From positions 1 through 64,000 of the forward strand of contig JAMLGI010000009.1 in the NCBI GenBank assembly GCA_023958085.1: a stretch of 64,000 nt of DNA, written 5' to 3'. The notes under the pieces are model-generated. The model ran no database searches, was not told the DNA's origin, and worked only from the letters and a program-made list of their open reading frames with translations. The DNA comes from Solirubrobacterales bacterium. GTDB lineage: Bacteria; Actinomycetota; Thermoleophilia; Solirubrobacterales; 70-9. Positions 57,589 through 61,687 of the stretch are shown piece after piece. The translations under genes were made by a program, and so were the position numbers. Numbering within the stretch: the first letter of the stretch is position 1; each line of letters starts with the position of its first letter.

Positions 57589-60500
57589 TCAGCCGCGCTT
57601 GGCTCGGCTGATGCAGCGGACCCGCTTCTTCCTGTTCTTCTTGAACTTCTTCTTGCACTTCCTGATCGTCGGCCCTGCGTTGTACTTCTTGATCTTGACT
57701 CTGGTCAGCGGGGACCAGTTTCCGGCCCTGTCGCGAGTACGGATCGCGATCCAGGCGGTCTTCTTCTTGCCGAGCTTCACGGTCAGCCGCTGGGTCCTGC
57801 CCGGGGCGGCGATCCCGGCCTTGAGCCGTTTCGCCTTGCCGAGACCGGCGACCGTGACCGCCTTCTTCGAGCGGTAGATCTGCAGGGTCCTGACCTTGCC
57901 GTTCGAGACGCCGTTGTCTCCGGCTGCCTTCCAGGTGAGGACGGCCTTGCTGCCGGTCCGCCTGATCTTCACGGCGGCCCCGGCCGGAGGACGGGTGTCG
58001 TTTCCGAAGCGGCCCGAGTTGTGTTCGTCGTGGCGGTACTTCCACCACTGGTCGTTGCGTTCGGCCTTGCCGCCGACCTTCCAGAGGAAGAGCTGCCCTT
58101 CCCGGGTGCCATAGGCCAGATACTGGCTGCCGTTCGCTTTCGGATCACCGACGGCACCGCCGAATCCGGTCCACTGGCCGGTCCACTTCGGGAATCCGGG
58201 AGCTTCCTTGCCGTCCGGTCCGCGGGCATGGATCCAGTACGAGTCGTTCGAGGAGATCATCGAACGGCTCTTGCCGCTGCCGAGTCCGGTGATCAGCGGG
58301 GAGGAGTAGAAGGCGAAACCGTCCTGGTCGGTCGGGAAGTCCGGCAGCTGTGCGCCGCTCACCGGATCCCAGACCGAGTCGTATACGTGGGCGAGCAGCG
58401 CGGTGCCGTCGGCGTCGAATGCCTGCATCAGGCTGGTGCCGCCGGCCACCGACTGCGCGTAGTTCAACTTGCCGTTGCCGGTCATGTCGCCAAAGGCGGA
58501 CTGGCCGGAGAGGCCGATCACCATGCCGTCCGGCAGGTAGTAGGGCGGGATCCCCTTGCAGGTGGTCGTCTTGCATGATCCGGACAGGTTCTTGAAGATG
58601 CTGCCGTCCGCGTTGATGATCTGGGGGAACCCGCCGGCGGCGGTGAAGGCGATCCGCTGCGTCCCGGAGCCGTCGACATCGGCGATCGTGGCGCCGTTGC
58701 CGCCCTCCTGGACGAAGTCGATCGACTCCTGGTAGCAGCCGGCCATACCGCCCGACTTCACCGGCCACCCGGGCATGAATGCCCCGCCGGCATGGTCGTT
58801 GCCGTCGGACTGGATCCCGTACAGGAATACCGCCCCGGTCTTCTTGTCACACTCGAAGCTCGGCAGGAAGACCTGGTCGGTGCCGGTCCCGAGCACGTCG
58901 CCGACCGCCGGAGGCTGGATCAGCTTCGGATCGCGGACGTACTTGCCGGCCTCGATCGCGTTGGCCTGGGATGCCGGCAGTTTCACTTCCACCGGCCAGC
59001 CCGGGACCGCCTGGCCGTTGGGCTGCCAGGCGTAGAGATGACCGTCGAACGATGTGGTGAGAATCGAGAGTTTGCCGTTTCCGGTGAGGTTGGCCAGCAC
59101 CGGCGCGGACCAGTTGCCGCGAATCGGCAAACGGCTGCCCGGTCCCTCCGGCTGACCCGGCGACTGGGCCGACGGGGTCGGTGAGGGCAGGGAGTTGTAC
59201 TGCGGGTCGGGCTTGGCCGGGAAGCCGGAGCGGAGCTTGCCGGTGGTGGCACTCCAGGCGTAGGTCCAGCCGGAGAATGTGGTTGCCACGATCGACTGGT
59301 CGCCCCGGCCTTCGAGGTCCCCGATCGCGATGCCGCTGATCGGGTCCCGGGTTTCGCGCAGGGCTCGGACGGACCTGTAGGCCTCACTGGGGAAGCCCTG
59401 CGGCAGGTTCGAGTCGACGTAGCGGAGCTGGCGGGTCTTCAGGGGGAAGTTCTTCGCCTGCTTGCCGTCCGGGCCGATCGCGTTGACCACTCCGTCGTAG
59501 GTGCCGAAGACCAGGTCAAGCCGGCCGCGGCCCTGGAGGTCGGCGAAGGTCGGGGCGGCGCTCATTTCGGTCCCGATCGACTTCGGGTAGCCCGGGGCCA
59601 GGCCCCGGTCGGTGCGGGCGCCGAACGAACGCCGGTCCTCGCCCTTGAGCCCGTTGCCGTCCCGGGCGCGGAGGCGGACCGAGACTGTGTACTGCTCCGG
59701 TCCCTTCGGCGGCAGGGTCACGCCGGGCGTCTTCTTCGCGTAGGCGGCCAGAGCCTTGGTGCTGATCGTCCCCAGCACCCCGGACTTGCCGCTCTTGCCG
59801 GTCGAGATGGTCTTGAAATCGGAGTCCTTGGGGTCGGCCCCGAAGGCCCACTCCAGGGTCCAGGCCACGCCCTGCGATCCCCAGGCGGACGGCTGGACGG
59901 AGCCCTTCACCTGAACGCTCTTCTGGCGGCTCGGATCGACGTACCGGTACCAGCCGGGGGAGGTCAGTCGGGCGGTCGGCGGCACCTTGCCGTCCATGAC
60001 CAGCTTGGTTGCCTTGCCGATGTTCGGGCGCCCGTAGCCGTACTGGGTGGACCAGTTCGTGTGGGTCGCGTCGGTCTTCGAGTCCGGGTTGCCGGGCCAC
60101 TGTTTCGGGATCTGCGGGTAGTCGGTTTCCGGAACGATCGGGCTCATCGTGTTGATCAGCACCTGCTTGACCTCGTTCACCGTCAGTTCGCGCGGATACA
60201 GGCTCTGATCGACCGCGTTTCTCGCGGCCGACTGGACCATTGCCAGGAAGGCGGCCTGGAACGGGGTCGCGCCCGAAGTCGTGGCGCTGTTGCCGGAGAA
60301 GATCGAGTGCGTGCCGTAGCTGGTCACCGTTCCGCGACCGCGGTAGGTCTGCACCTTGCCGCTGCCGTCCTTGGCCCGGACCAGCCCGTTGCCGGGGAAG
60401 ACATCATCAAACAGGTGCCCGTCGGTGTGGTCCATCGAGTCGAAGTCGTTCGAGTCCATCGACATCAGGACGTTCTTCTTCACCGCGTACGCAACCGCTT

Positions 60501-61596
60501 CCCGGAGCGCACTCGAGTAGGCGTAGGAGACGACCACCGAGGAGACCGCGTCGGCCCCGATGTCCACCGCGTAGGTGATCGCGGGGGCGAGGCCGTCGGC
60601 CTTGCCGATCGATTCCGCGCCGGACTTGATCGGGATCACCCGGCACTGGGGGCAGCCGCCCATGCCGCTGAAGTTGTTGTTCATCTGGCCGGCGATGTCG
60701 GACATCAGGCCGGAGGCATGGTCGTAGTCGAGGTTGTCGGTCTGGGGGTCGTTGGTGTTGTGGTAGGCGTTCCAGCCGGAAACGTCGTTGGGGTAGCCGT
60801 TGCCGTCATTGTCGAAGCGCCCGTCGTTGGGGCAGTTCGCCACCCGGCCGTCGGTGATCCTGCACTTGCCGAAGACAGCGACCAGGTCATCGGGGGAGAG
60901 GTAGGCGGTCTTCGGGCCGTTGATGTTCACCTTGTGGATGTACTCGTGCTGGCCGCCGTTGATGCAGGTGCGGGTGGTTCCCTCGGCGAACTTGACGCTG
61001 TCATCCGGGTTGCCGGCACAGTCCGGGTTGACGCGCGGGTCGTCCTGGTAGTCACGAATGTCGAAACGGCCGTTGCCGTCGTAGTCGTGTCGACCGAGGT
61101 CGCTGCCGTCGCGCTTCTGCGGATAGGGGAGCTCACCCTTGTTCAGGTAGACGTTGTTGAGCGCGTCCCGGATCGAGTTCGAGCTGTAGTTGACTCCGCC
61201 CTCGATGTAGGCGACCAGGACGTCGTCCCGGCCGACGTTGCCCTGGGCCCAGGCGCCGGTGGTGTTGATGCCGGCAGCCCCCTCGGGGTCGACCGCGTCG
61301 GGTGTGTTGCACGGCAACCCGCCGGCAGGACGGTCGGTGTTGTAGTCGGCCGGGTTGGAAGGGGTGCCCCCGGTGTCGAGGCACTTGCCGGGCATCCTGC
61401 CCCAGAGTTCCCAGCCGCCGTCGCCGACGTAGTTGGGTCCGACCGAGCCCCACTCGTTCGGCCAGTTGGGGTCGCCGGGCTGAAGGATCGGTCCGGTCGG
61501 GAGGTTCGGGGCCGGGTCGGCGGCCGCGGATGCGGTCTGAATGCCGACAGGGGCCAGCAGGCAGGCCAGCAATGCAATGACTCTTCTAACGCTCAA
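57589..61596 (-). CDS. Very large secreted divergent subtilase (S8) with FG-GAP-like repeats
   Basis: The 1335-residue protein starts at TTG with a strong Shine-Dalgarno sequence (GGGAGGAAG) and a signal peptide (about 1-24). Subtilase landmarks are present but altered: AYIEGGVNYSS has Glu132 where Asp is expected; NDGNGYPNDVSGWNAY leads to DHASGLMSDIAG with His293; MDSNDFD may hold the oxyanion Asn383; TTSGATPFQAAF has Ser441. From about residue 690 come repeats of the type DLxGxGRLDLVFGTYDGVVNA (FG-GAP/VCBS-like propeller), then an Fn3-like domain and a very basic Lys/Arg tail. It may be an active protease with Glu in the triad or a pseudoenzyme that binds the surface. Confidence 0.8.
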   Translation of the reverse strand: MSVRRVIALLACLLAPVGIQTASAAADPAPNLPTGPILQPGDPNWPNEWGSVGPNYVGDGGWELWGRMPGKCLDTGGTPSNPADYNTDRPAGGLPCNTPDAVDPEGAAGINTTGAWAQGNVGRDDVLVAYIEGGVNYSSNSIRDALNNVYLNKGELPYPQKRDGSDLGRHDYDGNGRFDIRDYQDDPRVNPDCAGNPDDSVKFAEGTTRTCINGGQHEYIHKVNINGPKTAYLSPDDLVAVFGKCRITDGRVANCPNDGRFDNDGNGYPNDVSGWNAYHNTNDPQTDNLDYDHASGLMSDIAGQMNNNFSGMGGCPQCRVIPIKSGAESIGKADGLAPAITYAVDIGADAVSSVVVSYAYSSALREAVAYAVKKNVLMSMDSNDFDSMDHTDGHLFDDVFPGNGLVRAKDGSGKVQTYRGRGTVTSYGTHSIFSGNSATTSGATPFQAAFLAMVQSAARNAVDQSLYPRELTVNEVKQVLINTMSPIVPETDYPQIPKQWPGNPDSKTDATHTNWSTQYGYGRPNIGKATKLVMDGKVPPTARLTSPGWYRYVDPSRQKSVQVKGSVQPSAWGSQGVAWTLEWAFGADPKDSDFKTISTGKSGKSGVLGTISTKALAAYAKKTPGVTLPPKGPEQYTVSVRLRARDGNGLKGEDRRSFGARTDRGLAPGYPKSIGTEMSAAPTFADLQGRGRLDLVFGTYDGVVNAIGPDGKQAKNFPLKTRQLRYVDSNLPQGFPSEAYRSVRALRETRDPISGIAIGDLEGRGDQSIVATTFSGWTYAWSATTGKLRSGFPAKPDPQYNSLPSPTPSAQSPGQPEGPGSRLPIRGNWSAPVLANLTGNGKLSILTTSFDGHLYAWQPNGQAVPGWPVEVKLPASQANAIEAGKYVRDPKLIQPPAVGDVLGTGTDQVFLPSFECDKKTGAVFLYGIQSDGNDHAGGAFMPGWPVKSGGMAGCYQESIDFVQEGGNGATIADVDGSGTQRIAFTAAGGFPQIINADGSIFKNLSGSCKTTTCKGIPPYYLPDGMVIGLSGQSAFGDMTGNGKLNYAQSVAGGTSLMQAFDADGTALLAHVYDSVWDPVSGAQLPDFPTDQDGFAFYSSPLITGLGSGKSRSMISSNDSYWIHARGPDGKEAPGFPKWTGQWTGFGGAVGDPKANGSQYLAYGTREGQLFLWKVGGKAERNDQWWKYRHDEHNSGRFGNDTRPPAGAAVKIRRTGSKAVLTWKAAGDNGVSNGKVRTLQIYRSKKAVTVAGLGKAKRLKAGIAAPGRTQRLTVKLGKKKTAWIAIRTRDRAGNWSPLTRVKIKKYNAGPTIRKCKKKFKKNRKKRVRCISRAKRG

Positions 61597-61687
61597 GGTA
61601 CTTCCTCCCTATACATGACTTTCACCCACAACACACCCCGCGGGCTCCCGTTGCAGAATGTATCGCGAATTCGTTGCGAGGGACGAA

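Follow-up and report, generated by a model that had tools for sequence, protein, structure and literature searches.

The product of P0001, an S8-family gene in the 64,000-nucleotide stretch of Solirubrobacterales DNA analysed here (the window), carries a glutamate, Glu132, at the position of the catalytic aspartate, and comparison with its relatives indicates that this residue is real, conserved and lineage-specific. The clade to which P0001 belongs is best read as a distinct S8 subfamily, and we put at about one in two the probability that its members act through Ser441, His293 and Glu132, with an aspartate in the oxyanion hole, as proteases that are probably specific and possibly acid-active.

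Assignment of P0001 to the subtilase family begins with its Pfam match (PF00082, 39 bits against a cut-off of 21.8); curated equivalogs gave matches far below cut-off only (T9SS M6i and mycosin). The TTG start is preceded by AGGGAGGA-AGTACC, and the positions of this and the other features are collected in the table below. AlphaFold2 models were built with the family alignment for two constructs, residues 26-1225 (pLDDT 87.5, pTM 0.90) and the catalytic domain, residues 98-555 (pLDDT 85.4, pTM 0.90). The best 50 Foldseek matches listed for the catalytic-domain model were S8 proteases throughout, with no sedolisin among them, and included deseasin MCP-01 (3vv3, TMt 0.71), PvSUB1 (TMt up to 0.70) and subtilisin BPN' (TMt 0.65). 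By its modelled fold and its profile match P0001 is as such an S8 subtilase. A family search recognised no prodomain family in P0001 or in the scanned relatives, including the canonical relative L045. The propeller-like repeats suspected in the first-pass annotation are in agreement with the best Foldseek match of the full-length model, the designed Cake8 propeller 6tjg (TMt 0.86), and with FG-GAP or FG-GAP_3 matches in the relatives L045, L107 and L039. The tail is indeed very basic, as had been annotated, and reads CKKKFKKNRKKRVRC; similar lysine- and arginine-rich tails with two cysteines are present in most relatives of the same genus (for example L002-L006, L008 and L010) and are rare or absent in most others. 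One might guess that this tail binds to surfaces.

Features of P0001 and its upstream region, with positions in the window
Feature	Position	Strand	Basis
S8-family gene P0001, 1335 aa, TTG start	57589..61596	-	ORF; PF00082 match; one copy in genome
Shine-Dalgarno-like GGGAGGA, 6 nt 5' of TTG	61603..61609	-	sequence
Predicted signal peptide, aa 1-25, RR...ASA-AADP	61522..61596	-	read off sequence by eye
S8 subtilase-fold domain, aa 98-540	59977..61305	-	AlphaFold2 model and Foldseek
Glu132 at catalytic-acid (Asp32) position	61201..61203	-	conservation; alignments; model strand
DNDGNGYPND loop, likely Ca-binding	60784..60813	-	aligned to FDDDNNG of SUB1 4lvn
His293 at catalytic-base (His64) position	60718..60720	-	invariant 107/107; opens helix 196-205 of model
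Asn383 at Gly154 position	60448..60450	-	Asn 76/76 in Glu clade; A/D/S in Asp clades
Asp384 at oxyanion-hole (Asn155) position	60445..60447	-	invariant in both clades; profile alignment 1dbi/1thm
Ser441 at nucleophile (Ser221) position, within TTSGATP	60274..60276	-	invariant 107/107; start of helix 343-366
Beta-sandwich (Ig-like) linker, approx. aa 541-672	59581..59976	-	strands 535-635 of full model; approximate boundaries
Beta-propeller, ~8 blades, FG-GAP-like, approx. aa 673-1190	58027..59580	-	Foldseek; FG-GAP in relatives
Fn3-like C-terminal domain, aa 1196-1300	57697..58011	-	sequence pattern VLTWKAAGDNG...YRS by eye; inferred
Basic tail, aa 1306-1335	57592..57681	-	15/30 residues K/R, D/E none, two Cys

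The placement of Glu132 at the aspartate of the S8 triad, proposed in the first-pass annotation from motifs, is agreed upon by HMM profile alignment to 1dbi and 3vv3, by the family alignment and by the secondary structure of the catalytic-domain model, in which Glu132 is the final residue of the first core strand (30-35 in the numbering of the model). His293 and Ser441, which had been described as retained, align with His64 and Ser221 and lie at helix starts in the model, with Thr440-Ser441 opening a long helix and Asp384 three residues past its strand; all codons for Ser441 are TCN. We take the sites of Glu132, His293, Thr440-Ser441 and Asp384 to be those of subtilisin Asp32, His64, Thr220-Ser221 and Asn155. 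Acid, base and nucleophile thus follow one another in the model as in S8, the acid, here glutamate, on strand 1 and the other two on helices. Asn383 had been taken for the retained oxyanion asparagine, and this assignment is ruled out by the family and profile alignments: profile alignment to AK.1 protease (1dbi) and thermitase (1thm) places Asp384 under the oxyanion asparagine and Asn383 under Gly154, and the same correspondence is given by ungapped alignment with the nearest canonical relatives (ASGNEF in L069, AAGNEF in L045). With Asp384 at the Asn155 site and Glu132 in place of the canonical acid Asp, two catalytic positions and therefore not one alone are non-canonical. Other candidate acids (D283, D288, E328, D389 and a sedolisin-like acid on the base helix) were rejected because they are not invariant, are distant by alignment or are absent, and neither the model nor the alignments put another aspartate at the acid position.

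Conservation of these residues was assessed in two sets of relatives. A whole-protein search of 399 genomes of the class found relatives in 51, and scanning GTDB contigs yielded 76 loci, a large share of which repeated sequences already found; identical sequences were removed from the catalytic-domain alignment, in which a few near-duplicates stay (L017/L082 and L036/L118). Because the seed patterns of the scan included SNDF and QYGYGR, part of the invariance of residues 382-390 and 518-522 in the scan set is by construction. The invariance of E132, H293 and S441 does not arise in this way, and positions 132, 293, 383, 384 and 441 are all invariant in 17 sequences picked from the unseeded class set. 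At these five positions the 76 sequences of the Glu clade, mostly from Actinomycetota, read E-H-N-D-S and the 31 sequences of the sister clades read D-H-(A/D/S)-D-S, with D-H-G-N-S in canonical outgroups. Conservation of the glutamate among homologues, which the first-pass annotation had set as a check, is as such complete (76/76), among relatives as little as 32% identical in pairwise comparison, in an alignment with 30 fully invariant columns out of 551 and on a subtree with a length of 18.55 substitutions per site. The Glu132 codons are GAG in 60 and GAA in 16 sequences, with Asp one third-position base away. With the trait columns left out of tree building and the tree rooted among Asp-bearing proteins, the change from Asp to Glu at position 132 occurs once (SH-aLRT 100) with no reversal. 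By this reconstruction from sequences the swap arose a single time and was never reversed over approximately 18.6 substitutions per site. Single origin and retention in every close relative found therefore indicate a built-in feature rather than a random defect. That Glu132 is a chance mutation, a sequencing error or the mark of a decaying copy in one genome has next to no probability left, being refuted by this conservation, with the reading frame and ribosome binding site of P0001 also intact.

Other positions have changed in the Glu clade. The position of Ser125 is mostly V or T in the Glu clade and A in the Asp clades, and that of Gly127 is A or V in the Glu clade and G in the Asp clades. 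Gly219 and the HGTH motif are altered in the Glu clade, the change away from GHGTH having been recognised at first pass. Thr440, equivalent to Thr220, never varies in the Glu clade, and the Asp clades have G or S in its place; Thr220 positions the oxyanion residue (PMC11593635). Further clade-specific invariants include Y130, N136, E328, N383, F385, D389, R421 and Q518, among others, and by alignment these would map in part to substrate pockets.

P0001 shares with S8 subtilases (PF00082; subtilisin, thermitase, deseasin MCP-01 and SUB1) the fold, the order and position of acid, base and nucleophile, a Ca-type loop, and the serine and histidine. It differs from them in having Glu for Asp32, Asp for Asn155 and altered HGTH and SLG motifs, in its lack of a recognised prodomain, and in the addition of a propeller. 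The Asp132 sister clades of Thermoleophilia (for example L028, L039 and L043) have the overall domain order, the oxyanion Asp and the lack of a recognised prodomain in common with P0001, but retain Asp132 and HGTG or HGSG and are without Asn383 and Thr440. We infer that in a working enzyme Glu132 would orient and charge His293, which would activate the nucleophile Ser441, while a protonated Asp384 would take over from Asn155 at the oxyanion hole, as an aspartate does in sedolisins and PC2. Such a role for Asp384 would imply an optimum at mildly acidic pH and a range narrowed to particular substrates, which the C-terminal beta-propeller and Fn3-like domains of this secreted protein may present or capture.

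By analogy, each of the two changes has a precedent elsewhere. A Ser-His-Glu triad like that proposed for P0001 is found in the S66 peptidase LdcA, which belongs to another family and has another substrate (PMC4087270). A natural oxyanion Asp occurs within S8 in PC2 (S8B; PMC8551645), which differs in having an Asp-His-Ser triad, a prodomain and a P domain. The S53 sedolisins also have an oxyanion Asp (PMC11593635, PMC5935664), and kumamolisin, in which this residue (Asp164) is protonated, works best at pH 2-4 (PMC5935664). Sedolisins, however, have a Glu base, with an Asp acid four residues further along the same helix, whereas in P0001 the base is His293, the acid lies on strand 1, and residue 297, four on from the base, is L, E or Q in the family and so not a conserved acid. 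A non-exhaustive search of the open literature gave no subtilase that combines a glutamate acid with an oxyanion Asp, and a similarly non-exhaustive search for subtilisin D32E or Glu-for-Asp subtilases returned no relevant title.

The first-pass annotation left the choice between a protease of unusual chemistry and a dead scaffold, and both halves of that statement stand, with the balance towards the former. In the latter case the S8 fold would have been turned into a conserved module for binding or for a receptor function; E132, H293, D384 and S441 would make up a site for a ligand or metal, or a structural site, and adhesion would fall to the propeller. We regard this explanation as a serious contender at well under even odds. 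It stays live because several substrate-binding residues have been lost: the absence of Ser125, Gly127 and Asn155 and the changes to Gly219 and the HGTH motif, together with the prodomain search without a match, all tell against a working protease. CspC shows that S8 folds are able to turn into receptors (PMC6636752), and L194, which is from the same genus and related to a different Glu-bearing S8 gene, is without acid, base and nucleophile. However, CspC lost two catalytic residues, His and Ser (PMC6636752), both of which are invariant across the Glu and Asp clades (107/107 sequences), and the acid is conservatively changed. Invariant E, H and S, with the clade-specific pocket residues, favour on alignment grounds a working protease over a dead scaffold, although the invariance of E, H and S could have another source in a conserved ligand site without turnover. 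The remodelled pockets, with the clade-specific charged residues E328 and R421, are also what might be expected if, in place of general proteolysis, the protein performed some other acyl chemistry (self-cleavage, transpeptidation or ester hydrolysis), and a substrate gene linked to the locus was not found. This is unlikely, as the parent family is a peptidase family and there is no positive sign of such chemistry.

If the proposed working protease is correct, the Ser-His-Glu set and its oxyanion Asp would amount to a third arrangement. The broader claim, that the subtilisin superfamily has a third kind of triad, which evolved a single time, for the most part within Actinomycetota, and became fixed in a widespread subfamily of secreted, propeller-bearing, acid-active proteases, is one we advance tentatively, at a little short of an even chance. 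The homologous series with Asp/Asn, Asp/Asp and Glu/Asp as acid and oxyanion residues would allow the tolerance of the triad for a longer acid to be tested directly, as well as any coupling of the acid position to the oxyanion position. Even if inactive, these proteins constitute a large uncharacterised family of secreted actinobacterial proteins.

The same genome encodes other S8-like proteins. A second S8 gene (L178:889-2703, plus strand; G000:C3:80680-82494) carries Glu where subtilisin has Asp32 (LIEQGID, ungapped against BPN'), with the other motifs canonical (HGTAV, AAAGN and GTSFSAP). Among the 30 matched loci of its family, itself included, 5 have Glu, 24 have Asp and one, L194, has lost the catalytic residues as described above; S8 proteins have therefore undergone Asp-to-Glu change on more than one occasion, and its fates have been mixed. 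A third S8-like protein (L179:619-2988, minus strand; G000:C1) has the sequence VVSLEYFWNRDHEDL, in which the acid position is without an Asp. Glu is present in 8/8 sequences of its family, and the acid is ambiguous because 7/8 also have an Asp two residues earlier; in a profile alignment of the relatives a nearby Asp can fall at the acid position. Upstream of P0001 (61688-63571, minus strand) lie genes named by eye as an RDD-type membrane protein and a lipoate-ligase-like protein. In 10 close relatives (for example L071-L078) the RDD-type gene has a syntenic counterpart, within the genus only, and neighbourhood comparison gave no recurrent neighbour as a partner gene beyond close relatives. 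In at least two genomes the Asp-bearing sister clades adjoin, with one gene each (L039/L043 in G366:C24 and L044/L062 in G065:C6), an arrangement which suggests that these adjoining genes act as a pair.
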